In this document: piece by piece, positions 7,465 to 26,060 of the stretch | How the letters are laid out: every line of letters starts with the position of its first letter | Numbering within the stretch: position 1 is the first letter of the stretch | DNA from: a virus | DNA length: 28,096 bases | Reading direction: 5' to 3' (one strand) | Virus record (IMG/VR): IMGVR_UViG_3300008448_000472 | Span: 1 to 28,096 of that record | The notes under the pieces: generated by a model | The model's input: only the letters and a program-made list of their open reading frames with translations | What the model was told of the DNA's origin: nothing | Database searches by the model: none | Program-made: the position numbers and the translations under genes

Positions 7465-7777
7465 AATAGAAGAAGTAATTATTCAATGCCGCGTTATAAT
7501 CTTGTAGTGTCGCCACCAATGGAAATGGAACGTTTATTGTCGTACCATCGGGTATTGACCATTCTAAACCACCAAATTGTGGATTTGCTTGTAATATTAA
7601 CCAACCAAAAAAAGGTGTGCCATAATATTCCTGTGATATCTTATCCATTCTACTTCTTCCTACACGATAAATGTATCTTTGATCCGAGTTTTTAGGTCTC
7701 AAAGGAACAAATGGGACAACGGTTTGACCACCATTTACTTCAAAATCCACATATCTATTATAATATTGATAACTCAT
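7454..7777 (-). CDS. gp53-like baseplate wedge protein with LysM-type domain
   Basis: A 107-residue protein. Residues about 30-85 match the LysM-like fold of T4 gp53-type wedge proteins: RYIYRVGRSRMDKISQEYYG (about 31-50), then FFGWLILQANPQF and a closing PDGTTINVPFP segment, the usual 'w..I..aN......i..G..i.iP' pattern. T4 gp53 joins the wedges to the central hub at the baseplate inner ring. The gene overlaps both neighbours (four bases with the 1604-aa gene, eleven with the hub gene), so the three are almost certainly made from one message. Its length is short compared with T4 gp53 (~196 aa), meaning only the LysM-like core is present. Start chosen at ATG 7777, which gives the natural overlap. 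Confidence 0.75.
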   Translation of the reverse strand: MSYQYYNRYVDFEVNGGQTVVPFVPLRPKNSDQRYIYRVGRSRMDKISQEYYGTPFFGWLILQANPQFGGLEWSIPDGTTINVPFPLVATLQDYNAALNNYFFYYGR

Positions 7778-10700
7778 AGTTTAAACTTCTTTTTAAGATT
7801 GTAAGGATTATCAGTATCGGCATCATTATTAGAATTAAACAATTTACTCAATCTTGTTTTATCATCACTACTTGGTGTAAAATCAGTCGTATATGAACAA
7901 GTCCTATCAACACCAACGTTTATACCAACAACATTTAGAATGTCTTTATTAATTGTGTTTTTATTATCATCAACAATACTTAATTCCGTATTATAAGCAC
8001 TTTCAAAGACCGACTTCACCTTACCAAATTCATCATTTATTATTGTAAGTGAAATAGGATCTGTGATACCGTTAGTGATTGCACTCATAAAATTAGTATA
8101 ATCATTAATATAAACACCACTCATTAACATATATTCTAACTTAGATTCCGGAGTTGTAAACCCAAATTTAGTAACAGGGAATATTTCAGAGTCAAATTTG
8201 AAGCTTTGAGTCACATAAGGTGGGTAATCCCCATCAGTTAAAGTAGTTATAAATTGATTACAATAGGTTCCTATTGTTGTTAAGTCAGTAGTCATTACCG
8301 AAAGAGTTGAACCCGTTATTTTATATAACTTCGGTTCTCCCTTTTCAATGAAACCATCTCTTTCAGTTAATACATAATTCAATTTATCTATTGTAAATAC
8401 ATAGTCTTGTTCTAACGTATTCAATGATTGAATTGATGTGGTAAGTTTAGTTAAAAACGTAGGTGCATATCCACTAACATAGTTTATGTAGTTCTGTTTC
8501 AAATCTCTAACTACACTATTTTTAACATTTCTGTTTTGTTCTAATGTGGATATTTGAGATAATGATCCATTATTGATTTTACTTTGTAATTGTGAGAAGA
8601 AAGAAACATACCTGGATTGAATATTTACAGGTGATCCAAATAGATTAACATCTTGTGGTGACGTATATTGATTGAACTTACCTGTGTTATATTTTAGAAC
8701 ATTCGTAACGTTTTGTAATACCCCATAATTATAATTCTTAAGTGTATCGTTTAAGAAATTATACACACCATTATAATAATTTTTAGACTGTGTAACAAAC
8801 CCATCAAACACTTTAGTATATGATATATTACCATAAACCACGGTAGATGTTCCCGACGTTGCCGCAGAGGTTGTAGTACTCTTAATTTCACCAATTGTTG
8901 CACCACCAAGTGATGTGGAAACCGGAGTTGCTTGTGAAACCGATGTGGTTGTCTCAGTTTCAGTTAAACCTAATGCACCAATAAATTGTTGATTGAATTG
9001 TTCTCTATCTTCCGTTTTTTCAGCTCTTTCATCATACATCTCAGTATTTGCATAATAATTAAACGATAATGCGTTTTGTAATTTTTCAATTGGTTCTTTA
9101 AGTCCCGAACCACCAATAAAGTTAAAACTTAACGTAACATCACAAATCATCGGTTGCATACCAATACCTTCGGGATTCAAATCAAAATTTTCAAATTTGA
9201 AACTTAAGTTTGTTGGAATAATTTTAGTATTATAGAAATCACCAATTCTTAGCACCAACACAGGTGGGGCACCAAACGCGGTGTTTGTTGCAACATCCGT
9301 TACAGGTTTTCCATCCAAACCTATTGTTGGTATCGTATCACCCGGTCTTACACATTGATTTAAGAATGTCAATCTTGAATTTAATCCTTCAGGTGTCATT
9401 GAGTGAAACGTTGGATTAAAATATTTGATCTTGTCTTTGATTGAATCAAAAACAACAGGATCAGTACTTTTCAATATATCAAAATAGTTACACTCAGATA
9501 ATAAAGATCTAACAATTCTCTTACTAACATCATTTTTAATTTTTTGTTGTATGGTTGTAGTCGTTACAGGTTTTGGTGCTTCCAATGGTAATTGTCCTGT
9601 TGTTTGTTCTTGCTTAGGTGGTACCGCACTTATTTGTGGTGGTGGAGGTGCTTGAGGAATATCACCGGGAACATATTTAATATCCTTAATTGCAACTCTT
9701 CTACAAGCAGATGCTTGAACGGAAAATATCTTATTGTATGGTATATTTTTAGTATCTAAGTCAGTACAATTATAACCCTGTGATTTAGTCCCTTTATTGA
9801 AACTATATAGTGTAGCACTTGATTCTTGCTCACCTCTCGCAGAACCCGAATCAATTTTCAATCTTCCCGAATCTATGTATGAACCCAAAACATTTTGGAA
9901 ATAATCTTTAACACTATCAATTCTTCTTTTTGACAAATCAACGTTGTAACTTATTGTTGCAGGTGCGGACGCAGAACCAATTAAAGTAATTGTTATACTT
10001 TTAGCAGTCCCGTCATCCAAAACTTTCTTTATCTCGGGAACCAATTTATTACCAACAGTTGTGAAGTTATCAATAACAATATCATCAAAGAAATTTTGCA
10101 TCTCAGTTTGTGTATTATTTCTTGAAGCAACTTCAATGAAGGTTGTTTCCTTACTTAATAAGAAATTATATTCAACATCATAAGCACTCGTTGTTTGAGT
10201 TAATCTCGTATTTGGATCGGGATAATCGTTGTAAAAATAAAAACCTAAGTTTTTAAACTTATCCCAATTTAATTCAGATGGTTTGGTTTGTTGAGGAATA
10301 ATTGGTGCCGGTTGTGATTGATTAATCGGTTGTGTAGATTCCTGTGTTGCAGGATTTTGTGGTGTTGTTGTATTAACAATTGATTGAAAATATACCAAAT
10401 CCGATGCCGGTATGGTATTATATGTTTGAGCCAATTCATACAAATCATATTCTTTACAACCCGCGAAGAAAGAATCAACGATATTATCAGCAGTTTCTCT
10501 ATCAGTATTCGCCAAAACCTTATTAACAATAAGATTTAATATAGATGGGTGATCCACCACAATCTTAAATGATAATTGACCCGATCTTGATGTGTTTTTA
10601 TAAGTATAAACAGGTTCAGGTCGTCCAATAAATGTATTTTCATTAAACGACGGTCTTGAATCCTCACTAAATGTTAAACCATAAGGTGGGAACCACATTA

Positions 10701-12588
10701 TTCTACCCCCATTAGGACCTCTCTCACAAGCAGGAAGGTCCGACACTCTAAAACCTTCTTTATTTGACGTTCTCCAAGCCAAGTTTTCAATACTAAACAT
10801 GTATTTGGTAACGTTTTTCTCAACTGCAGTTGGATTAACGTTGTTACTTGTCGGAACAATATTCAAATTATATGTTGAAGTTATTACAGAATTAACAAAT
10901 TGATAGATACTACCTTTTTGTTTCTGTAAATTTTCATAATTAATATATGGTTTGTCCTTAGCAAACACCCTACAATATTCTCTACCCGCTTCCGTTCCCG
11001 ACGCATTAGTGTAAGATATCACCCTAGAACCCTTAGTTAATTCCTTATACCCATCACTAAATACTTTAGATACTTGGTCAATTGCGTTACCAACGTGGTT
11101 AAGTCTCTTAGCACCATCGGGTTGTGAATCTATTAACCTTTGAGTATCATCTAAAATACTACCCGGTCTAAATTCATAATTAGTTGATTTACCCGCATTG
11201 AATTTATCACTAATACTATTAAATGTTGGGTTATTTGTGGTATAATCACCACCAGGTGCTACATTTTTACCCGCATTTTTACTATATTTCGGTGATACCC
11301 ATGTGAACCCTCCTTGAATACCCCCCGCATCCTCATAAGATTTACCCGCAAAACCGTTTTGGATTTGTATATTATTTTCATAATTATTACCCAATACTTC
11401 AGGTCCATATACAGGAGCATTAACTTCTCTACCCGTTTCATCTTTTGGTATAGCACCCGGAGGTGATGTTAAAGATCCCGGATCTTGATCCTTTGAACCA
11501 ACATAAAAGTTTCCTTTAGTTAAGTTTGATAAATTAAACGAAAATATACCACCTACGGCATCATCACTAAACGCGGGTCTAAACTTGTTTTGTTCAATGT
11601 TAGATTGTAGTTGGAATTTTTGACCCGATCCTGTATTTTTTAAGAATAAATCCGACGGTGTTCTACCTCTTGACCCTCTCGTTCCAAACGCCCCCGCAAC
11701 CGCAGCACCAACAACCGTTTGTTGTGTTCTACCAAGGTTGTTCTGTGTCATATCCTCATCAAAATAATCACCCGGTATCGGTGATACAGGATAGTAAGTT
11801 CCTGCAATTCTGTTAAGAATATCCGCCATTTTACCAATAGCGTTTGACGGAACAGTAATTGTCCAATCTTTTGATACTATAGGTCTTTTACCCGCCAAAA
11901 CTTGAGCCACCTCAAATGGATCTCTAAGTGACTCTAAGAATGTAAGTCTTCCGATTGTTTCGGTTCTAACATTTTGATCAACCCTCGCCTTTAAATTAGC
12001 CTTTAACGCAACCCCAATATCAAACCTTCTTGGTTCAGAATCCAAAGATAATGTACCATCCGACCCTTGTGGATTACTTGAAAGTAAAACCGCATATGGT
12101 GAATATAATGAGGGTCTAAAACTAGGTGGACCCCAATACGGTGCCAAAACACCTTTAGACCTTTGTATTAAACCAATATTATACGGATTTTGAAAACCTC
12201 CGGGAGGTCCGTATTGGTTGATAATTGACGATGCTTTTTGATAGGATATACTATAATTCTCAATAGCATCGATATATGGGGGAAATGGTCCATATTCCCC
12301 CTTATTAGGTCCCGAACTTACAACATTATTATAATTTATAGTTTTATTAAAACCACCATTAGGACCAAATTCATTAATCTTATATAAATTATCAGAAAAA
12401 GGACTGTTATCTATTAAAACATCAGGAGAATCAATTACACTATAATCCTGTAATTCGGTTGGGTATGTAACCGCACCACTTGGTGGTGTATATACGCCTG
12501 GTTTTCTGTAAGGTTTAAGATTCCTTACAATTAAACTTTTTCTAATGATCTCGGTTGCATTAAACGATAACGGACTAGTTCCCATCAA
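7774..12588 (-). CDS. Large baseplate/tube-initiator-like protein with OmpA-like domain
   Basis: A 1604-residue multidomain protein. The N-terminal ~130 residues carry Gly/Pro/Asn-rich repeats (NEFGPNGGFN, NQYGPPGGFQN). Around residues 625-690 there is a tube-like domain ('RIMWFPPYGLTFSEDS' and 'GRPEPVYTYKNTSRSGQLSFKIVVDHPS') that recalls gp48/gp54 and injection-system tube proteins. Residues about 829-918 form an OmpA-type domain: ITLIGSAS, then NVDLSKRRIDSV (equivalent of NxxLSxxRA), then GSARGEQ. A proline-rich linker (about 975-1005, APPPPQ) leads to a second barrel (about 1105-1185) with FNFIGGSG and ALSFNYYANTEMYD. The OmpA Asp of the usual GHTD motif is replaced (GSAS), so peptidoglycan binding is uncertain. 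It heads a coupled unit with the gp53-like and hub genes. I infer that it forms the tube/baseplate junction; the exact T4 counterpart is not certain. Confidence 0.7.
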   Translation of the reverse strand: MMGTSPLSFNATEIIRKSLIVRNLKPYRKPGVYTPPSGAVTYPTELQDYSVIDSPDVLIDNSPFSDNLYKINEFGPNGGFNKTINYNNVVSSGPNKGEYGPFPPYIDAIENYSISYQKASSIINQYGPPGGFQNPYNIGLIQRSKGVLAPYWGPPSFRPSLYSPYAVLLSSNPQGSDGTLSLDSEPRRFDIGVALKANLKARVDQNVRTETIGRLTFLESLRDPFEVAQVLAGKRPIVSKDWTITVPSNAIGKMADILNRIAGTYYPVSPIPGDYFDEDMTQNNLGRTQQTVVGAAVAGAFGTRGSRGRTPSDLFLKNTGSGQKFQLQSNIEQNKFRPAFSDDAVGGIFSFNLSNLTKGNFYVGSKDQDPGSLTSPPGAIPKDETGREVNAPVYGPEVLGNNYENNIQIQNGFAGKSYEDAGGIQGGFTWVSPKYSKNAGKNVAPGGDYTTNNPTFNSISDKFNAGKSTNYEFRPGSILDDTQRLIDSQPDGAKRLNHVGNAIDQVSKVFSDGYKELTKGSRVISYTNASGTEAGREYCRVFAKDKPYINYENLQKQKGSIYQFVNSVITSTYNLNIVPTSNNVNPTAVEKNVTKYMFSIENLAWRTSNKEGFRVSDLPACERGPNGGRIMWFPPYGLTFSEDSRPSFNENTFIGRPEPVYTYKNTSRSGQLSFKIVVDHPSILNLIVNKVLANTDRETADNIVDSFFAGCKEYDLYELAQTYNTIPASDLVYFQSIVNTTTPQNPATQESTQPINQSQPAPIIPQQTKPSELNWDKFKNLGFYFYNDYPDPNTRLTQTTSAYDVEYNFLLSKETTFIEVASRNNTQTEMQNFFDDIVIDNFTTVGNKLVPEIKKVLDDGTAKSITITLIGSASAPATISYNVDLSKRRIDSVKDYFQNVLGSYIDSGRLKIDSGSARGEQESSATLYSFNKGTKSQGYNCTDLDTKNIPYNKIFSVQASACRRVAIKDIKYVPGDIPQAPPPPQISAVPPKQEQTTGQLPLEAPKPVTTTTIQQKIKNDVSKRIVRSLLSECNYFDILKSTDPVVFDSIKDKIKYFNPTFHSMTPEGLNSRLTFLNQCVRPGDTIPTIGLDGKPVTDVATNTAFGAPPVLVLRIGDFYNTKIIPTNLSFKFENFDLNPEGIGMQPMICDVTLSFNFIGGSGLKEPIEKLQNALSFNYYANTEMYDERAEKTEDREQFNQQFIGALGLTETETTTSVSQATPVSTSLGGATIGEIKSTTTSAATSGTSTVVYGNISYTKVFDGFVTQSKNYYNGVYNFLNDTLKNYNYGVLQNVTNVLKYNTGKFNQYTSPQDVNLFGSPVNIQSRYVSFFSQLQSKINNGSLSQISTLEQNRNVKNSVVRDLKQNYINYVSGYAPTFLTKLTTSIQSLNTLEQDYVFTIDKLNYVLTERDGFIEKGEPKLYKITGSTLSVMTTDLTTIGTYCNQFITTLTDGDYPPYVTQSFKFDSEIFPVTKFGFTTPESKLEYMLMSGVYINDYTNFMSAITNGITDPISLTIINDEFGKVKSVFESAYNTELSIVDDNKNTINKDILNVVGINVGVDRTCSYTTDFTPSSDDKTRLSKLFNSNNDADTDNPYNLKKKFKL

Positions 12589-12626: not shown

Positions 12627-14366
12627 TTATTGACCCGGCGCGTTATAAACATCAGGTTCTTTTAATACTGCTTTAACTGCGTTTGAAAATTGTAAATTTT
12701 TAGCATCTATTTGACCAACAACTCTATTATCTTGCATAATATCCACCCTACCCGTTAATTGGACAGTAACGGGATCAACTCTAACAGTTTCCGGTTTCTT
12801 AGTTTCTTTAATACCTAATTGTTCTATAAGATCACTAACAATACTTCCAACCGCAGGAACAACAATATTTTCTTTAGAAATTTGTGTTTGAAATGTGGAT
12901 GCAAAATCAATTGAGGATATTCTGTCAATACTTTTACTAAAGTTTTCAGAAAAATCAACAATAAAGTCGTTAAGAGTTGTTCCAAACTTATCGTTAAACC
13001 CTTCAAGGTCACCCTTAACTAAATCCTTTATTGCATCAACACCACCGGTTTCAAATCTATCTACTAATTGTCGTTGATCTCCGGGACGAAATGCCTGTCT
13101 AACACCTTCAGTAACAATTCTTTGACCTCCTCTTTGTATTTCAATAAGATCTTGGAACACTTTACTACTAGCAATCCCCGACACTCCGAAACCAACTTTA
13201 ATCGCTGTCAAATTATTGTTCATCATTTGTTGTGTTGATAATTGTTCCGCAGCAAAATCCTCTAAGGTTTTGGCACTTGTTGTTTGTGCTTTTATCTTTT
13301 CTAAATCACCTTGTTGTAGTTGTGAAACCAATCTATCTTGACCATCAACTTTAACCGTAAAACCTCCTTTAATCTTATCAAAATTAGCAACACCCGACAA
13401 AAACATTTTTGTTTCTTCGTCAATTCCGGCAACTTTTAATTCTTTTGATACTTCATTAAGTTGAGCCCTTGCCTTAGCCATTTTAACCATGTTATCATAA
13501 CTAAGTCCCGTTTCTTCGGAAATTTTCATTAAATCTCGTCTAGCAGCTGGAGGTATCTCAAATTTACCGGTTTCTTTATTCAAAAAACCCATTCTTTCAA
13601 CCACACCACCAATAGCTTCTTGTAGTCCTTCAGTGTCTTCTTGTGCCAAATACATCAACCTAAACGGATCTGCTAAATCACCAACAGCAACCCCTAATCG
13701 TTGAAATGTATTTACCGCACTAATAGCACCTTCAGGGTCAAATACTTTTGACGCAAAATTAAATACGTCGGACATATCAATCTTTAGTAAAGCCGCTTTT
13801 GCCGCCATCCTTGCCAAACCATCAACACCCGTTTGAAATCCAAATTTATTAGCATTTGATAAATTATCACTAACTTGTTGAAATACTTGATTTGTATTTG
13901 CTCCGAATTTTCTAGCTTCAGATAATATGGTTAATGTGTTTTCACCAAAATTATTCATGGATTCACCAAAGTCAGCAAATTTTACAAAACTTTGTGTAAT
14001 GGATTGAATACCTAAACCGGTTGCTGTCGCTGCCGCTTGGATCTCAACCATATTTTTAGCACCAACAACAAAACTATATTCAAGTTCAGAGGCGATATTA
14101 GAAATTATGTCAGCCGCTTTTTGTGTTAAATTAGCAACATCGGTACCTTGGTCAATAACCAAAGCCAAATCTTTAGATGCGTCGGCAATAGTTTTGGAAA
14201 CCTCTCTATAAGTTTCCCTATTGGCAGTCATGTTCTTTTGAACGGACAGAGATTGCTCATCAAGATTTTCACGAAATTCCTGCAGATTTGCAAAAAATTG
14301 TTTGGTAAGAATGTCGGCCAATCCTTGTCCATATTTATTTAAATCGTCAAAAATATTTTGTGCCAT
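12627..14366 (-). CDS. Tape measure protein, gp29-like
   Basis: A 579-residue, largely helical protein, close in length to T4 gp29 (590 aa). Residues 1-100 are amphipathic helices; residues 100-260 contain Ala/Gly-rich helical stretches (AAATATGLGIQSITQSF, AARMAAKAALL-type) of the kind found in tape measures, and the C-terminal ~60 residues are more beta-like. Tape measure proteins fill the tail tube, set its length and leave during DNA injection; at about 0.15 nm per residue this would give a tail of roughly T4 length. The gene lies directly after the tube and chaperone genes, the standard place. It has its own TATTTAT motif. No transmembrane hairpin stands out beyond the Ala-rich helices. 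Family assignment rests on length, composition and synteny. Confidence 0.75.
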   Translation of the reverse strand: MAQNIFDDLNKYGQGLADILTKQFFANLQEFRENLDEQSLSVQKNMTANRETYREVSKTIADASKDLALVIDQGTDVANLTQKAADIISNIASELEYSFVVGAKNMVEIQAAATATGLGIQSITQSFVKFADFGESMNNFGENTLTILSEARKFGANTNQVFQQVSDNLSNANKFGFQTGVDGLARMAAKAALLKIDMSDVFNFASKVFDPEGAISAVNTFQRLGVAVGDLADPFRLMYLAQEDTEGLQEAIGGVVERMGFLNKETGKFEIPPAARRDLMKISEETGLSYDNMVKMAKARAQLNEVSKELKVAGIDEETKMFLSGVANFDKIKGGFTVKVDGQDRLVSQLQQGDLEKIKAQTTSAKTLEDFAAEQLSTQQMMNNNLTAIKVGFGVSGIASSKVFQDLIEIQRGGQRIVTEGVRQAFRPGDQRQLVDRFETGGVDAIKDLVKGDLEGFNDKFGTTLNDFIVDFSENFSKSIDRISSIDFASTFQTQISKENIVVPAVGSIVSDLIEQLGIKETKKPETVRVDPVTVQLTGRVDIMQDNRVVGQIDAKNLQFSNAVKAVLKEPDVYNAPGQ

Positions 14367-14391: not shown

Positions 14392-14577
14392 TTAGTTAGT
14401 TTTGGGTGTTAAATCCGTGACCAACTTGTTCATCAAATATTTCCTAAAATAAGTGGGCATACGATAAAAATCTCCATAAGAAACATGTAGATGCTTCGCC
14501 AAATAATAAAATTCGTCAGATAATACTCTGTTATAATCAGAAGAAAGGGCGAAAAAACTCTGCCCCAAAGGCGATAT
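14392..14577 (-). CDS. Out-of-frame C-terminal extension of the tail chaperone (recoded)
   Basis: After the gp26-like gene the minus strand keeps a second open frame, +1 (equivalently -2) relative to the first, from 14577 down to a TAA at 14392-14394. It overlaps the end of the first frame by 41 bases. From the proposed slip point it encodes about 52 residues, with an aromatic helix (EFYYLAKHLHVSYGDFYRMP) followed by TYFRKYLM and a polar end. That pattern resembles the short T-type extensions of phage tail assembly chaperones. The only ATG inside it leaves 22 codons and has no start signal, so independent translation is unlikely. The fusion would be about 295 residues. A one-base sequencing error is the main alternative. 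Confidence 0.65.
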   Translation of the reverse strand: MSPLGQSFFALSSDYNRVLSDEFYYLAKHLHVSYGDFYRMPTYFRKYLMNKLVTDLTPKTN

Positions 14578-15280
14578 TCAAATCTACCTTTTTTCCGGAT
14601 GGGGCGATAACTGTTTTCACAAGATCCAATCTTGGTTCATTTTCATTAATGAATTTTTTAATGTATTTAGAATCCATAATAGGCATAGATTCAATAAACT
14701 TAATAATATTTTCAGGGCTAGTATCATCATTAATACTAATAATTGACTTAGCCAATCTTGTAGTCACCGTAGGTGCTTTACCCACAGGATACATCGCATT
14801 CATTCTATCCAACTCTGTCATATCACCCAATGTCAATGGTTTTAATTTTACCTTCACTTCACTTCTTGGTAAAGTTGTGGTCCATGTCCCATCCTCATTA
14901 GGTAATTGATTTGTTCGTTTAATATTTAACTCATCTAACATCACATTACCCTTAAACTCATTACCAGTCTCGGGGTCAATTAATTTGAATGTGTATTCGG
15001 GACCAAACGATGTGTTCCTTAAAAAGATAAGAATAGCTTCAATATCACCATTTAACAAATCTTCGGGTCTAATTCCCGGTTCATATAATTTTGATCTAAT
15101 TAGTGTTGTTACTATGGAATCGGAAGGTGCCGACATAATTGTGTTTTCATCCGAAGCGGTCAAATATCCCACTTTCACAGATTCCTTTTTATTTTTATAA
15201 AAAATTCCTCTTGATGGTAAAGGCACCACATCATGTGGTAAATTAAAATCAATTTGTCCGTATTGTGTTGCGTCTTGCAT
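14537..15280 (-). CDS. gp26-like baseplate hub / tail assembly chaperone protein
   Basis: A 247-residue protein with the hallmarks of the T4 baseplate-protein family that includes gp26: an N-terminal 'LPSRGIFYKN' segment (about residues 21-30), then 'VGYLTASDENTIMS', a helical 'LIRSKLYEPGIRPEDLLNGDIEAILIFLRNTSFG' region and a domain with paired beta strands ('TFKLIDPETGNEF'). In T4, gp26 takes part in hub assembly. Here the gene lies between the tube and tape measure genes, the place of tail assembly chaperones in other phages, and its end overlaps an out-of-frame extension, another chaperone trait. The ATG follows directly on the T-run of a terminator, with no leader motif, so it probably depends on read-through from the tube gene. 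The product is therefore likely made in smaller amounts than the tube protein. Confidence 0.75.
   Translation of the reverse strand: MQDATQYGQIDFNLPHDVVPLPSRGIFYKNKKESVKVGYLTASDENTIMSAPSDSIVTTLIRSKLYEPGIRPEDLLNGDIEAILIFLRNTSFGPEYTFKLIDPETGNEFKGNVMLDELNIKRTNQLPNEDGTWTTTLPRSEVKVKLKPLTLGDMTELDRMNAMYPVGKAPTVTTRLAKSIISINDDTSPENIIKFIESMPIMDSKYIKKFINENEPRLDLVKTVIAPSGKKVDLNIAFGAEFFRPFF
14551..14557 (-). other. Candidate programmed frameshift site UUUUUUC
   Basis: In the message the zero frame reads GAG UUU UUU CGC CCU UUC UUC UGA. A tRNA-Phe on the second UUU can re-pair perfectly with UUC one base downstream (+1), or with UUU two bases back (-2). The next zero-frame codon, CGC, is likely to be infrequent in this AT-rich genome, and the UGA stop lies four codons later. 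Either slip leads into the open frame ending at 14392. Confidence 0.55.
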
Positions 15281-15342: not shown

Positions 15343-15831
15343 TTAATATACCAAGATACAACGATCCATACGTAATGAACAAGATAGAGTCGCTAACTTA
15401 TCATCACTATATGATGCTTGTGACCAAGATACATCAGTCAAGAAAGTATTTTCAAGTATCCACTTTTCAACAACAACACCCGTTGGATCTAACATCTCTA
15501 AGTCAATGTTTTTCTTATAACCCGCAGCATAACCCATACGACCTGTTACAGATTCAGCGTGCAAACGAACCCACTCCATTAATGCCTGTGTTGCCGATGG
15601 CCCAATAGGATCCACAAAATCAACTTTAATCGGGTCCCAATTGAATCTACCCGCAACGAATGTACTTGTATTTAAGAACGGTATTTCTGTACTACCTATT
15701 TTTATTGCCGGTCTTCCCGAACTCTGAACATACCATTCGTTAATACCCAATGAAGAAGGGAATCTTAATATAAATCGGTTATTCCTTTTGGGTTCATAAG
15801 GAATAGGCATTTTCATTAACAAATCAGCCAT
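15343..15831 (-). CDS. Tail tube protein, gp19-like
   Basis: A 162-residue protein, matching T4 gp19 (163 aa) in size and pattern: 'PYEPKRNNRFILRFP' (about residues 11-25), 'INEWYVQSSGRPAIKI', 'FNWDPIKVDFVDPIGPSATQALMEW', and the C-terminal 'LTDVSWSQASYSDDKLATLSCSLRMDRC' strand pair. Six-fold rings of this protein stack to form the inner DNA conduit of the tail. The gene has its own upstream TATTTAT motif and a terminator directly after it, so it appears to be a single-gene, high-output unit, as needed for a protein present in more than a hundred copies. It sits downstream of the sheath gene but is separated from it by the HAD-like gene. Identification is confident. Confidence 0.92.
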   Translation of the reverse strand: MADLLMKMPIPYEPKRNNRFILRFPSSLGINEWYVQSSGRPAIKIGSTEIPFLNTSTFVAGRFNWDPIKVDFVDPIGPSATQALMEWVRLHAESVTGRMGYAAGYKKNIDLEMLDPTGVVVEKWILENTFLTDVSWSQASYSDDKLATLSCSLRMDRCILVY

Positions 15832-16787: not shown

Positions 16788-19700
16788 TTAGATATTTTCA
16801 AAAGACGCACCTGTTGGTGTAATTAAGAACTCGATATCAATGAATTCCAAAGATTTAGTTGGTTTAATATAAACTTTACCCACCAATTGGTTTCTATCCA
16901 AATCTTCGGGTGAAGAACTTACCGTAACTCTGAAATCATATAGACCTCTATCTCTTCTAATTGAATCCAAAATAGGATTAACCGCATCTAAGAAATCTTG
17001 TCTAACTTTCTCATCGTTTTGTTCAAACAACAATCTAACCGCAACCGCTGAAATTAATTTACGAGCTTGTAACAACAATCTTCTAACATTTAATCTGTCA
17101 AGTGCTGATTGTGCAACTTGTAGTGTTTTATTACCCCAAATTACAGTTCCAACATCTGAGAAAGTTGCGATAGGATTAATTCTTCCTTGATACAATGTAT
17201 CTCTATCTGTTTGAGTTAGTTTTCTTCTTGCTTTTACCGAATTAACCAAACCTCTAGTATAACCCGCCGATGCGAACCAAGGGAAAGCTATATTATCGGT
17301 AAGTGCTAAGTTTCTACAAACCTCACCTGTTGGTGGAAGATAAATTTGTGTGTTATTAACAGTATCTCTAACTAAAATCCAAGGATAATAAGTTGATGTA
17401 TAGTTAGAATCAATACCAGTATCATCCAAAGTATTAACAGCTTCAGTCGGATCAATGAAATCTTGTGAATCCACCGTTGAAACCAATAGGTCAATATCGG
17501 GAGTTGTTGTGATATAGATCGAATCCGCTCTATCTTGCTCAACCATCTCAATTGCGTTTTCAACTAAGTTACTGTTATTTACATAATCAATACCCGGAGT
17601 TGCGAATACGTTAATATTAGTTGCTTCAGGATTTGCGAATGTTTGAATACCAATTAAGTAAGCATAATAGTCAGTTGTTGCATAATCGGTAGTGTTATTA
17701 CCATATGTATATGGTCTAAACGCACCCCAACCAGTTGCCGATGGATATCTTGTATCACAAGTAGATGAAACACCTTTCTGATATCCTGTACCACCTAAAA
17801 TAAATTCATCACCATTAGATCTTCTTTCTCTATAAATGTCCCAACCATCAAAACCACCTTGAACTAAGAATGTGAATTTACGTGATTGTATTTTATAATA
17901 TGGATTAGCGGGATCTGTTGGGTCTGTTGTGAAACTTGTTGATCCAACTTCAAATGCCGATGTTCCTGAAGATAGGTATGAATTTGCGATAGTTACTACC
18001 GTAGCACCACTATCCATGTGGAAACCTTTAGTTTGATAAGTCCAACTTGATGCCTCATTACAAATACTTGTTGGGTTTTGTTTTCCTTTATATTGGAACA
18101 AATCGGAGTCAATACCCAATTGTGATGAAAATCCTAAGTAAGTAGTTCTAACTTTATCACCACTTGATGTTGTTGAATTATCTGCCGAACCTGTAGCATT
18201 TCCAAATGGTGGGTTGTAAATAACTTCACCAGGGAAATCATACTTAGTTTTATATACAGGTTGTGGTGGTGTGTTTGATGTTGAAGAATAGGTTCTTTCA
18301 ATTAAACCTTCAAAACCACAAGGAATGGCATCTACAGGTGCATCATAATTAAGCTCCAACATAATAAACTTAGAGTTTAATTGGTATTCACCATCAGAGG
18401 TACCAACTTTAACACCAATGTAACTATTTTGACTAGGATCCATTGTACAGTTTGTGAATTTCTCCAAAATAACAGGATTTGTGTCCGTATCGTAAAAATC
18501 CCTAACAGCAATATCAAAAGTTAAATTATTGAACGACATATTCAATATTGAAACTTTAACTTGTGTATTAGCAGCATTACCATCTGAAATTGTAATTACT
18601 TTGAAAAGTTCATACACCTGATTACCTCGAAGTTCTGAAACCACCCAAGGAGAACTTGGTGTTTGGTAAGGATCTAAGAAATAAGCCATAGTTCCTGTTG
18701 TGTTAGCAGCTCTCAACCCCGGTAACTGAATTAAACTTGTGCTTAGTCCTCTAATGTAACCTTTATTATAACCAAAATTCAACAAGTTAGGATAAATTTC
18801 TTCTACGAAAAGAGGAACTACTGTTCTGTCTTTACCAAAATTATCTTTACCCAATACTTTACTCAAATAGTTAGTTCCTGTTTGTTGCATTGACGCAGTT
18901 AGTGTGAATGGTGTGGAATTTGAAGTTGTTAAACCTGAAATTTGGAATTCTGTGTATGGATTTTTAGTTACACCGCTATTTACATCTACCAAATTAACAT
19001 TTGATTGAGCACTTACAACAAAATCGGGTCCCGCAACTCCGGAACCGTAATTAGAAACACCTCTTGATCTCAATGTTGCAACCACCATATTATTATATGC
19101 TGAATATGCAGTACCTGACCAACCAAAAGTTTGTCCCGAAATCGTTCCCGTGTATGATGTGTAAGATCCAGCACTTAAACCTCCCGACAATGAACTTAAG
19201 AAAGTTACAAAAGAACGACCAACATACGCATTGCCCGAACTGATATTAAACAATGAATAATACCAAGGATCATTTAAATAAGATGTGTAATCCTGAGATG
19301 ATGCGTTTGTGTTATAAACACCTAAAACGTTTGTTGAAGCCGTGTAAGCACCTGATGTATATGTTGTGTTAGTTGCCGATGGTAAACTACCAAAAATATA
19401 TGATGTTGCACCTGAATTAACTTGAACAACCGCAGCGGTATCATTACCAAAAACCGTTAATAATAAATTTTGTAAATCTGTTGTAAATGTTGAAGTACTA
19501 CCATCTATTTTAGTATATGACGCATTTACGTCTGTATATGCTGACAATCCGTTTGTTAAAATATTTACAGTTCCCGTTGAGTTAGCACTAAATGTAACTG
19601 TGAATCCAACAGGTGTATTACCTGTAATACCAATTGTTGATGTATTTGGATTTGCAATCGTTTTGATAGTCCAAGATGGTCCTGCATCATATCCTGATAG

Positions 19701-19994
19701 ACCTAATATTCTTGATACAAATAACTGATTTGATTGTTGTAAATATGATTTTGCAATATATGCCATTTCATATTTAGGAATTTGTGTGTTCACAAATTTT
19801 TCTGTTGAAGTTCCACCGAAATATGTTTCATACTCATCAAAACTAGTGATAAAAATTGGTTCGAAAGCGGGACCTTTTAGTGCCTCACCAACCAAACCCA
19901 ATGTTGTAACACCAACACTTTGAGCAACAAAACTTAAATCCCTTTCTGAGGTATAAACCCCAGGTGAAACGAATACCTTATTTGCTGTAGCCAT
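16788..19994 (-). CDS. Tail sheath protein, gp18-like, greatly enlarged
   Basis: A 1068-residue sheath protein. The N terminus 'VFVSPGVYTSERDLS' (about residues 7-21) and 'GLVGEALKGPAFEP' are standard sheath N-terminal patterns. The C-terminal ~200 residues are the conserved sheath core: 'NKTLQVAQSALDRLNVRRLL', 'FEQNDEKVRQDFLDAVNPIL', and 'YDFRVTVSSSPEDLDRNQLVGKVYIKPTKSLEFIDIEF'. T4 gp18 is 659 residues; here the extra ~400 lie mostly between residues about 110 and 520, in Ser/Thr/Gly/Tyr/Asn-rich sequence that probably forms outward-facing domains. The sheath contracts to drive the tube through the host envelope. The gene has its own TATTTAT motif 29 bases upstream and is followed by the HAD-like gene. 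Start is the ATG preceding the conserved N terminus. Confidence 0.93.
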   Translation of the reverse strand: MATANKVFVSPGVYTSERDLSFVAQSVGVTTLGLVGEALKGPAFEPIFITSFDEYETYFGGTSTEKFVNTQIPKYEMAYIAKSYLQQSNQLFVSRILGLSGYDAGPSWTIKTIANPNTSTIGITGNTPVGFTVTFSANSTGTVNILTNGLSAYTDVNASYTKIDGSTSTFTTDLQNLLLTVFGNDTAAVVQVNSGATSYIFGSLPSATNTTYTSGAYTASTNVLGVYNTNASSQDYTSYLNDPWYYSLFNISSGNAYVGRSFVTFLSSLSGGLSAGSYTSYTGTISGQTFGWSGTAYSAYNNMVVATLRSRGVSNYGSGVAGPDFVVSAQSNVNLVDVNSGVTKNPYTEFQISGLTTSNSTPFTLTASMQQTGTNYLSKVLGKDNFGKDRTVVPLFVEEIYPNLLNFGYNKGYIRGLSTSLIQLPGLRAANTTGTMAYFLDPYQTPSSPWVVSELRGNQVYELFKVITISDGNAANTQVKVSILNMSFNNLTFDIAVRDFYDTDTNPVILEKFTNCTMDPSQNSYIGVKVGTSDGEYQLNSKFIMLELNYDAPVDAIPCGFEGLIERTYSSTSNTPPQPVYKTKYDFPGEVIYNPPFGNATGSADNSTTSSGDKVRTTYLGFSSQLGIDSDLFQYKGKQNPTSICNEASSWTYQTKGFHMDSGATVVTIANSYLSSGTSAFEVGSTSFTTDPTDPANPYYKIQSRKFTFLVQGGFDGWDIYRERRSNGDEFILGGTGYQKGVSSTCDTRYPSATGWGAFRPYTYGNNTTDYATTDYYAYLIGIQTFANPEATNINVFATPGIDYVNNSNLVENAIEMVEQDRADSIYITTTPDIDLLVSTVDSQDFIDPTEAVNTLDDTGIDSNYTSTYYPWILVRDTVNNTQIYLPPTGEVCRNLALTDNIAFPWFASAGYTRGLVNSVKARRKLTQTDRDTLYQGRINPIATFSDVGTVIWGNKTLQVAQSALDRLNVRRLLLQARKLISAVAVRLLFEQNDEKVRQDFLDAVNPILDSIRRDRGLYDFRVTVSSSPEDLDRNQLVGKVYIKPTKSLEFIDIEFLITPTGASFENI

Positions 19995-21835: not shown

Positions 21836-21850
21836 CTTGATTGTTTATTA

Positions 21851-21857
21851 TATTTAC
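21851..21857 (+). promoter_or_regulatory. TATTTAC, variant of the late motif, before the helicase gene
   Basis: TTATATTTACCTTTTAAG, one mismatch to TATTTAT, ends 9 bases before the ATG at 21867. Together with 21829-21835 it makes the 42-base gap between the leftward and rightward genes a compact divergent control region. Confidence 0.3.
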
Positions 21858-21866
21858 CTTTTAAGT

Positions 21867-23621
21867 ATGAATGAAATAAAAATCAATCAACCGCTTGAAA
21901 TCAGAGCACTTGATGTCCTTGATAGTTATTCAGGGGCAAACAATTATATTATTAAATTAAAAATCAAAAAAGATACCAATAAAAAGTTCTATCCAACAAG
22001 AAACCAAGCGGAATATATCTTGGCTTATAAAGATTCCGTTCCAAAAGTTGCAAGAAAATGGGTGGAACTTGATATGTATTTTGCCAATAAATTTGCTGAT
22101 GAAAAATTATTAACCGAAGTTCCAACCAAAATATGGGTTGAGAAGTTATTGGTTGAAAAAGATACGTCTTATCACATTTGGGGTAAGTATTTTGAACACG
22201 AGGAATTATATGATTTTTGGATTCCTAAATCAGGAATTATTAAAGATACTTCTGTTAAGGTTGTTATTGACTATGAAAAGTATTCACATAGACCGCCTCT
22301 TTCACACCAAAAAGAAGGTATTGAGAAATTAGTTGGAAATAAAAAATACATTCTTGCCGATGATATGGGTTTGGGGAAGACAACACAAACAATTATTGCT
22401 GCGTTGGAGACAGGGGTTGAGAAGGTTTTAATTATTAGTCCTGCATCATTGAAGATCAACTGGCAACGTGAGATTGAAAATTACACGGATAGATCGGTTG
22501 TAATTATTGATGGGAAGAAATGGGAATCCGCCGATTTTGTTATCGTAAATTATGACATTTTGAAAAACTTTCATGATCCAAAAAATCGGGAAGAAAGTCA
22601 AATATTGAATGAAGGATTTGGGTTGGTCATTATTGATGAAGCACATTATATTCAAAACACACAAGCACAAAGAACAAAACTTATTAACGATTTTGTTAAA
22701 AAAATTGATAGATTATGGTTATTAACCGGAACACCAATGACATCAAGACCAATAAACTATTATAACTTATTAAGTTTGATTGATTCACCCGTTGCAATGA
22801 ATTGGATGGCTTATGTTATGAGATATTGTGAAGGTTATCAATTCAAGGTAGGGAATAGAAAAGTTTGGAATGTTAATGGTGCGTCAAATCTTGAAGAATT
22901 AAGAGATAGAACATCTCGTCAAGTATTAAGAAGATTAAAAACCGACGTATTGGATCTTCCTGAAAAAATCATCACACCCGTTTATCTTAAATTGAAATCT
23001 TATGAATATGAACGATTGATGGGTGAATATTATGATTGGTATGATAACTCTAAAGAATCTACCTCATTAACCGTACAATTCACTAAATTAATGAAGGTTA
23101 GACAGGTTATATCGGAAGAAAAAGTAAAATCAACAATTGAATTATGTGAAAACATTATTGAACAAGGAAAGAAAGTAATTGTTTTTACCAATTTTACCAA
23201 CTCGTTAAACTCTATCTTATCTCACTTCGGAAAAAAAGCGGTTGGTCTTGATGGTAGTATGCCTCAAGGTATGAGACAAGATAACGTTGATAAATTCCAA
23301 AATGATGAAAATATTATGGTGTTTGTTGGGAACATTAAAGCAGCTGGGGTTGGTATCACATTAACATCTGCGGAAGTTGTTGTTATGAATGACCTGTCAT
23401 TTGTACCGTCAGATCACTCACAAGCCGAGGATCGTGCTTATCGTTATGGTCAAAAAAATAACGTTTTGGTATATTATCCTATTTTTGATAACACGATTGA
23501 GGGTATTATTTATAACATTCTACAAAAGAAGAAAAACATCTTTGAAACCGTTATGGGGGATAATTTAAGTAAGGGTGATATGGTGGAGGAAATCATGAAT
23601 ATGATTAACACAAAAAGATAA
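21867..23621 (+). CDS. SNF2-family (SF2) helicase / ATPase
   Basis: A 584-residue protein counted from the ATG at 21867; an earlier in-frame TTG at 21837 would place the start inside the divergent control region, so it was not used. All main SF2 motifs are present: PLSHQKEG (about residues 144-151), Walker A MGLGKTTQT (Lys171), a DEAH box at 257-260, LTGTP at 286-290, GVGITLT at 494-500, and QAEDRAYRYGQ at 519-529 with its arginines. The last motif's RxxQ-type form marks the SNF2/SMARCAL1 branch; these enzymes translocate on double-stranded or forked DNA. The N-terminal ~135 residues are a distinct beta-rich region. Phage SNF2 or UvsW-type proteins act in replication fork and recombination processing; which applies here cannot be read. 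It is placed among structural genes. Confidence 0.9.
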   Translation: MNEIKINQPLEIRALDVLDSYSGANNYIIKLKIKKDTNKKFYPTRNQAEYILAYKDSVPKVARKWVELDMYFANKFADEKLLTEVPTKIWVEKLLVEKDTSYHIWGKYFEHEELYDFWIPKSGIIKDTSVKVVIDYEKYSHRPPLSHQKEGIEKLVGNKKYILADDMGLGKTTQTIIAALETGVEKVLIISPASLKINWQREIENYTDRSVVIIDGKKWESADFVIVNYDILKNFHDPKNREESQILNEGFGLVIIDEAHYIQNTQAQRTKLINDFVKKIDRLWLLTGTPMTSRPINYYNLLSLIDSPVAMNWMAYVMRYCEGYQFKVGNRKVWNVNGASNLEELRDRTSRQVLRRLKTDVLDLPEKIITPVYLKLKSYEYERLMGEYYDWYDNSKESTSLTVQFTKLMKVRQVISEEKVKSTIELCENIIEQGKKVIVFTNFTNSLNSILSHFGKKAVGLDGSMPQGMRQDNVDKFQNDENIMVFVGNIKAAGVGITLTSAEVVVMNDLSFVPSDHSQAEDRAYRYGQKNNVLVYYPIFDNTIEGIIYNILQKKKNIFETVMGDNLSKGDMVEEIMNMINTKR

Positions 23622-25385: not shown

Positions 25386-26060
25386 ATGAAACTACTTGAG
25401 AGAAAAATACATTTACTAGAATCTTTATTGGATGGTAAGAATATTTTTGAAGCCAATTATAAAGCACAAAAATTAGATTATAACTTAAATTCATTATCAG
25501 ATTTTATCGGTAAAGATACTATGGATGTTCATTATAATGGACATTATAAAACTTACCTTAAAAAATTAAATGAACTTCTACCGGATGAAAAAATGATCCC
25601 AATAGAAGATTTAATTAAAAAAATATCAAGGTATAACAAGAAAATTAGGAATAATGCTGGTGGTGTATATAACCACCAACTATTTTGGAAAATGTTATCA
25701 CCAAACAAAACAAAACCATCTAAAGAACTATTAGAAAAAATTAACAAAGATTTTGGTTCTTATGATGAGTTCAAACAAAAGTTTGAAAAAGTGGCATTAG
25801 ACAGGTTTGGTTCAGGATGGGTTTGGTTAATTATGGGTAAAAGTGGTAGGTTACGTGTCGTATCTACACCCAATCAGGACAACCCCGAGATGAATATTAT
25901 TAGAAATGGAGGAAAAATTTTATTGGGGCTTGACATTTGGGAACATGCGTATTATCTTAGCTACCGAAATGAGAGAGACCGATATATCAAAAACTTTTGG
26001 AAAGTGGTAAATTGGGATTTCGTAAGTTCAGAATATCAGAAACTTAAACCAACTAAATAA
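25386..26060 (+). CDS. Fe/Mn-family superoxide dismutase
   Basis: A 224-residue protein converting superoxide to oxygen and hydrogen peroxide. All four metal ligands are present: His49 (MDVHYNGHYKTY), His97 (NNAGGVYNHQLFW), Asp183 and His187 (LDIWEHAYY). Gly at the place where iron enzymes usually have Gln (NNAGG, residues 89-93), together with Gln164 in TPNQDNP, resembles the manganese type. GSGWVWL (143-148) is the usual core strand. The enzyme proper starts near residue 30; residues 1-28 are an extra amphipathic leader, ending in I-F-E before Ala23, not a secretion signal. Its leader DNA copies that of the tandem array, and its stop overlaps the start of the nuclease-like gene by one base. 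Function confident; metal choice and reason for carriage are inferred. Confidence 0.93.
   Translation: MKLLERKIHLLESLLDGKNIFEANYKAQKLDYNLNSLSDFIGKDTMDVHYNGHYKTYLKKLNELLPDEKMIPIEDLIKKISRYNKKIRNNAGGVYNHQLFWKMLSPNKTKPSKELLEKINKDFGSYDEFKQKFEKVALDRFGSGWVWLIMGKSGRLRVVSTPNQDNPEMNIIRNGGKILLGLDIWEHAYYLSYRNERDRYIKNFWKVVNWDFVSSEYQKLKPTK

Follow-up and report, generated by a model that had tools for sequence, protein, structure and literature searches.

A G/GT-type pair of tail assembly chaperones is, on sequence evidence, probably encoded by a single gp26-like gene of a T4-like phage through a programmed +1 frameshift, a reading to which we assign a probability of roughly 0.87. The gene lies in IMG/VR record IMGVR_UViG_3300008448_000472, whose 28,096 bases (33% G+C) were analysed as a whole and are called the window here. 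Normal translation would give a 247-residue gp26-like protein comparable to lambda gpG. A minority of ribosomes would stall with peptidyl-tRNA-Phe on the second UUU of a UUUUUUC run, since the CGC codon that follows is rare; the tRNA would re-pair one base further on, with UUC, and translation in the +1 frame would add 52 residues to give a 295-residue protein comparable to gpGT. A CCCC/GGGG stem upstream, behind the ribosome, probably favours the forward movement. If lambda is a guide, the short form may coat the tape measure while the rare long form recruits tube subunits. The conserved frame, the slip site, the rare codon, the complementary arms and the trace of selection are features of the sequences themselves; from these we infer that the shift occurs, how often, what the stem does and which partners are bound. 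A programmed frameshift in a T4-type tail chaperone gene had been proposed in an earlier note on this DNA, and comparison with related loci supports it.

The tail gene cluster

Judged by its tail genes, the window is a piece of a T4-like phage. The order on the minus strand is sheath, a gene without a Pfam match, tube, the gp26-like gene and a gene of 579 codons. The tube gene (15343..15831, minus strand; phrog_4542 tail tube, E 1.4e-20) lies directly upstream of the gp26-like gene (14537..15280, minus strand; ATG start), whose 247-residue product, the short form ('G' or TAC-N), matches PF12322 (T4_baseplate) with 45.5 bits against a curated cut-off of 24.5 in a profile search, as well as phrog_150 (baseplate hub, E 8.9e-16). 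PF08890 (Phage_TAC_5) has no match anywhere in the window. The 579-residue gene directly downstream (12627..14366, minus strand) is the probable tape measure gene by position and length only: it matched no Pfam family, and its protein has no significant match to T4 gp29 or to the four downstream genes of related phages that are annotated or presumed to be tape measures. The earlier placement of the gene between tube and tape measure is borne out on the upstream side by the tube profile; on the downstream side the tape measure is assigned by position only. The sheath gene (16788-19994, minus strand) encodes a long protein of 1068 residues in which the matched sheath domains are confined to the last third, residues 790-1056.

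A second frame under selection

The gp26-like gene ends in GCA GAG TTT TTT CGC CCT TTC TTC TGA, its protein in EFFRPFF, and the UGA of the unshifted frame occupies 14537..14539 (minus strand). A second frame, T, is +1/-2 relative to the gene and open from stop to stop over 14392..14577 (minus strand), as read from the ORF and from conservation in the clade; it continues for 47 codons beyond the UGA, close to the 50 or so first described, and stops at 14392-14394. The slip site UUU UUU C spans 14551..14557 on the minus strand (UUUUUU at 14557-14552, the next C at 14551) and would let a P-site UUU re-pair with UUC. The rare A-site Arg codon CGC (14549..14551, minus strand) is the fourth codon before the stop, in agreement with the earlier description of the run and the codon after it. 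The coding part of the extension, the T domain of 52 residues after the slip (residues 244-295 of the fused product P0005), covers 14395..14550 (minus strand); its frame is under selection, and it is helical in the structure model.

A protein search of IMG/VR returned 21 loci, of which 20 were examined (L021, a fragment, was left out); 19 of them reach the gene end and all 19 have the +1 frame and TTTTTTCG. An alignment search for the clade of the window kept 80 of 482 confirmed loci, 79 of which reach the gene end and 66 of which are distinct over 210 nt, one being of the window's own type. Two other alignment searches kept 80 of 600 and 80 of 548 confirmed loci. The two seeds of the window-clade scan included [ED]FFRPFF, such that the amino acids of the slip site were partly selected for, the codon choice and the frame not; all locus counts are rows, not independent events. 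Both frames, the U-run and the overlap are kept in 66/66 distinct loci (from 80 of 482). The T frame is open for at least 25 codons past the stop in 66/66, with a median of 46, whereas the other shifted frame of the same listed loci has a median of 6 codons and reaches at least 25 in 1/66.

Estimates of pN/pS, made from sequence pairs 60-97% identical over 99 nt, distinguish the frames further. After the stop, pN/pS in the window clade is 0.39 in the T frame versus 1.31 and 1.21 in the others (64 sequences among the matches listed). Purifying selection is thus seen in only the T frame of the three, which argues for translation into protein and against a chance open frame. For a second clade (Flavobacterium immuto / Microcystis Mel-JY01 type) the figures are 0.33 versus 1.85 and 1.15 (73 sequences, among the matches listed), and for cyanophage-type loci they are 0.19 in the -1 frame versus 1.55 and 3.4 (58, among the matches listed). 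The second clade has the other shifted frame also open for at least 25 codons in 25/75 loci among the matches listed; choosing the longest open frame miscalled some of them, and the frame was settled by profile. The window-clade T-frame profile prefers +1 in 74 of the 75 loci listed, 71 of them at E<0.01, and scores better in the other frame in 1/75. A third clade, of the SP-15 type, yielded 35 loci, and among the 27 distinct ones with a gene end that were kept, the profile prefers +1 in 24 and -1 in the other 3.

Slip codons and the direction of the proposed shift

Codon choice at the slip site departs sharply from that of the surrounding genes. The Phe pair is TTT TTT in 66/66 window-clade loci (from 80 of 482), compared with 73% TTT elsewhere in the same genes, and the codon that follows is CGG in 28, CGT in 21 and CGC in 17 of the 66 listed loci, never AGA or AGG. 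Elsewhere in the genes of these loci CGN makes up about 12% of Arg codons, AGA 77%, and AGA and AGG together 88%; the 246 Arg codons of 11 minus-strand genes in the window include CGC once and CGG never. Provided that reading of the T frame begins only after the slip, slipping and not double coding accounts for the choice of TTT TTT and CGN. No tRNA genes were found in the window.

The earlier note had left it open whether the frame is reached by a +1 or a -2 event, and the comparison favours +1. Altogether 172 loci with a +1 frame are available among the matches listed (66 + 75 + 24, and 7 annotated phages), with at least one phage counted twice (SP-15, as L028 and L204). Sites were classed by the nearest UUU before U or C within 60 nt of the stop, and a few of them could be chance. 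In 167 of the 172, UUU is followed by U or C, so that the Phe-tRNA can re-pair at +1; four have CCC A, which would allow a Pro-tRNA to do the same, and one has neither. The four, L223, L226, L228 and L232, are of the SP-15 type and read AAT CCC AGT near the gp26-like stop, an apparent CCC_A +1 site in place of UUU_C.

A -2 shift on the same U6 run, as known for phage Mu in the accessible text of PMC5009743, would give a product with one Phe more (EFFFALSS), and re-pairing at -2 is indeed possible at the UUUUUU of the window and at all 66 listed clade sites. Across the wider set it fits less well: in 13 of the 167 loci the tRNA would find no Phe codon at -2 (TTC TTT CGT and AAC TTT CTA are examples), such that 13/172 listed sites in the same frame cannot re-pair at -2, and the four CCC_A sites come in addition. 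Only a +1 shift requires that the U-run be followed by C or U. Since +1 fits nearly all sites and -2 does not, the backward event is considered unlikely, though it is the strongest of the alternatives. For the +1 shift the predicted junction peptide is VDLNIAFGAEFFALSSDYNR, without the extra Phe.

A probable stem behind the ribosome

Two complementary stretches precede the run. The 5' arm, GCCCCA, lies at 14600..14605 (minus strand) and the 3' arm, UGGGGC, at 14562..14567 (minus strand), ending 4 nt before the U-run; CCCC and GGGG are each present in 66/66 listed loci. The Gly codon three codons before the Phe pair is GGG in 66/66 listed loci against a background of 8%, and the codon 48 nt upstream of the U-run is GCC or ACC in 66/66 (background 9% and 15%, respectively). 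Pairing of the CCCC stretch with the GGGG stretch would give a stem of six pairs, with 97.2% of alignment cells paired compared with 13-64% when the arms are slid by 1-6 columns, and the stem has a pair probability of at least 0.5 in 65/66 listed loci. A stricter, position-bound test of own-energy folds passed 39/66 rows with columns slightly off, the corrected count being the 65/66 just given. The four core pairs are invariant and the outer pairs vary, the outermost being paired in 65/66, no better than shuffled columns (mean 63.9). With an invariant core and an outermost pair equal to shuffles there is almost no covariation support, and the case for the stem rests on synonymous constraint.

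The stem would fold behind the paused ribosome and block its backward movement. The GGGG could also act by itself, as a Shine-Dalgarno-like element without the stem; this is possible, but the stem is preferred because the GGGG is matched by an invariant CCCC. No downstream stimulatory structure appears in the alignment (alifold 0.0 for -5..+90). The loop of the stem contains a GGA codon (14594-14596, minus strand) in 66/66 listed loci, versus 34% of Gly codons elsewhere.

Forward, backward and two-gene forms

The layout of the gene was read directly in 21 annotated or public records. Seventeen have a shifted T frame, which is +1 in 7 (uncultured LR756508, GXN1, immuto, Mel-JY01, LIS04, SP-15 and RM378) and -1 in 10 (S-RIM8, Melnitz-1, VH1_2019, PhiW-14, ZPAH1, Atu_ph07, PA5oct, XacN1, Serratia 3M with a weaker site, and uncultured LR756511); the remaining 4 (T4, JSE, Aes508 and KP15) have two genes. 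The gp26 of cyanophages, KVP40-like phages and jumbo phages with a -1 extension belongs to the same G family and has a related T domain (hhalign of -1 against +1 frames, Prob 92.2, E 5.7e-7). Cyanophages carry a U6C run at the same place as the window, but there it is phased U UUU UUC with a -1 extension, whereas the window has UUU UUU C and +1. Among the 60 distinct cyanophage-type loci listed the -1 frame is open for at least 25 codons in 59, and the exception, L311, is cut by the contig end.

The short 'baseplate hub assembly' genes of S-RIM8 and Melnitz-1 (L033:3232-3369 and L032:3223-3366) are annotated from an internal Met; by sequence they look like the -1 extension of gp26, and the 45-residue 'gp51' annotated in S-RIM8 is the tail of the -1 frame. 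Cyanophage and marine vibriophage gp51 has been described as lacking the first ~200 residues and matching the C-terminus of others (Sullivan et al. 2010, PMC3037559, in its accessible text), and a frameshift would explain this shortening. A practical point is that several records either list the T part as a small gene of its own or leave it unannotated.

Copies of PF12322 were counted in 38 records, several of them incomplete contigs: 6 have two, 29 have one and 3 have none at threshold. Every record with two copies has the two-gene arrangement of T4 (T4 itself, Aes508, KP15, JSE and two T4-like contigs located by way of gp51); those with none are immuto, Mel-JY01 and one contig, in all of which the gene is found by tblastn. 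A tree of 69 G domains, in which branches are long, unites the two-gene rows in a single clade (99/98) next to the -1 phages VH1 and ZPAH1 (93/85) and requires 2 changes for the plus type and 3 for the minus type.

The T4 pair gp26 and gp51

Like the window, T4 has a short form and a long form with a C-terminal domain in the same PF12322 family, but it makes them from two genes and no shift instead of one gene and a shifted frame. Both gp26 (208 residues) and gp51 (249 residues) match PF12322, the latter over residues 1-201, and T4 gp26 ends AAA GAG TTC TTT GAG TTA CTA TAA without a T frame behind it. Searched against 2415 six-frame ORFs of T4, a profile of -1-type T frames has the C-terminus of gp51 as its sole significant match (E 4.4e-5), and a joint T profile ranks it first (E 0.003); the +1-type profile by itself did not find gp51 among these 2415 ORFs. 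The same pattern is seen with hhalign, in which the gp51 C-terminus matches the -1 frames strongly (Prob 97.3, E 2.6e-11) and the +1 frames weakly over its last ~48 residues (Prob 8.8, E 0.004). A direct sequence match between the gp51 C-terminus and the T frame of the window was rejected as too weak, and the link therefore runs through the -1 relatives. Taken together, the PF12322 copy counts, the T-profile matches and the tree favour a reading of gp51 as a copy of gp26 to which the T domain was fused in frame.

Other routes to the second frame

Reading of the T frame as a separate small protein from its own start is very unlikely. The earlier note had found no usable start; the window does have a TTG, the fourth codon of the T frame (14568-14566), which precedes the slip and is reachable in 52/66 listed window-clade loci. 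No start codon is common to all 66. In 61/66 listed loci there is no ATG, GTG or TTG in the first 15 codons after the slip, and 3/66 have neither a reachable TTG nor a start within those 15 codons. The S-RIM8 and Melnitz-1 annotations as a separate small gene would suit an independent start, but of the 58 cyanophage-type loci listed, 44 have Met at the annotated start and 13 have Ile, the residue of the last one being unplaced. Moreover, T4 gp51 is a covalent fusion, and an independent start would leave the invariant slip codons unexplained.

Transcriptional slippage at the U-run, producing mRNAs one base longer or shorter, seems marginally less probable still. A run of six U is present, but six bases is short for transcriptional slippage, 13 listed sites in the same frame have no long U-run (several have only UUU C), and both the rare codon and the stem before the run suggest an event on the ribosome. 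A sequencing error or a decaying gene, conceivable for a single contig taken alone, is ruled out by comparison with relatives, the layout being common to 66 distinct listed loci, six other phage records (one uncultured) and further clades.

Structure models

AlphaFold2 models were obtained for the fused product of the window (pLDDT 88.9) and for a T4-like gp51 (91.4). In each, the chain closes with two strands and then four helices, alternately short and long, the modelled C-terminal secondary structures being alike; in the window model the helices of the extension are residues 247-263, 268-272 and 276-290. Against predicted viral structures the window model finds the hub subunit of SP-15 at E 1.5e-17, Aeromonas phage 25 gp26 at E 1.6e-5 and hub assembly proteins of T4-like phages; gp26 proteins are also among the matches of the gp51 model. 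A VIA-align comparison with 994 PDB chains placed three phage tail assembly chaperones (described as such in the accessible text of PMC9603447) ahead of the rest for the window model: 3klu (YqbN; Z 5.6), 3fgx (RBSTP2171; 5.5) and 2ob9 (HK97 gp13; 4.9), the next being 3.2, where the tool's own note rates Z below 8 as modest. The modelled fold of the short form may thus bear a modest likeness to solved tail assembly chaperones. Foldseek returned no PDB match for the window model at E<=0.001, VIA-align of the gp51 model listed no chaperone (best Z 4.8, an unrelated protein), and a PDB sequence search with gp26 and gp51 gave only zinc-finger-like or unrelated chance matches.

Known systems and what appears to be new

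Tail chaperones are made by -1, -2 or +1 shifts in different phages and are, in the accessible text of Atkins et al. 2016 (PMC5009743), conserved in long-tailed phages 'except T4'; the shift is -1 in lambda, -2 in Mu and 'very likely' +1 in the haloarchaeal HSTV-2. Against this view stand the 17/21 records with a shifted T frame and the 4 with two genes. Lambda gpG/gpGT and HK97 gp13 likewise follow the tube gene and have an overlapping shifted frame, and the likeness to the window is one of position, layout and, modestly for the fold of HK97 gp13, of modelled structure; lambda's -1 differs from the +1 of the window (PMC5009743). Mu and HSTV-2 reach their tail chaperone through the +1 frame as well, but they represent other tail lineages and Mu does so by -2 (PMC5009743). 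In phage 0305phi8-36 the pair, gp143/gp144, is encoded by two genes, as in T4, and no shift is involved (Hardies et al. 2007, PMC2147016, in its accessible text).

The link between T4 hub factors and G/GT chaperones, announced in the earlier note as new, is not: Vladimirov, Gautam and Davidson 2022 (Virology 566:9) identified the tail assembly chaperone genes of T4-like phages, according to the accessible text of PMC10885494 and PMC12846349. Some T4-like phages are said there to do without a shift, having one short gene and one long, fused gene (PMC10885494, on Vladimirov 2022), and the same work is cited for poly-T -1 signals in T4-like genes (PMC12846349); gp26 and gp51 are presumably the pair meant. 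Both are annotated 'tape measure protein assembly chaperone' in the Acinetobacter phages Konradin and Octan (H51 and H100). From that work and these annotations, the chaperone identity and the two-gene form are already published, and the -1 form probably so. Novelty seems to lie in the +1 form, with its distribution and cis signals: no +1 site in T4-type phages was found in the accessible text of the open-licence literature, although Vladimirov 2022 may hold one, and a 5' stem with a hungry codon as stimulator was found recorded there for no tail chaperone.

A broader picture, to which we would give an even chance, is that of one orthologous tail-chaperone gene in which the same UUUUUUC run serves a forward shift in one part of the T4 superfamily and a backward shift in another, according to the phase of the run. 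The stem behind the ribosome and the hungry Arg codon of the window clade would push towards +1, and the T4 two-gene form would have arisen beside -1 phages by duplication. The +1 sites offer a natural and highly conserved system for how phase, rare codon and 5' stem set the direction of a shift.

Other genes in the window

Three further genes deserve mention. In the product of a late gene of 1604 codons (7774-12588, minus strand), residues 849-922 weakly match an OmpA-like domain, scoring 23.9 bits where the cut-off is 27.2 (E 5.4e-5). On the plus strand, this phage genome carries an iron/manganese superoxide dismutase gene (25386-26060; E 3.3e-39), and the first of the plus-strand genes encodes a SNF2-type helicase (21837-23621), perhaps the counterpart of UvsW.
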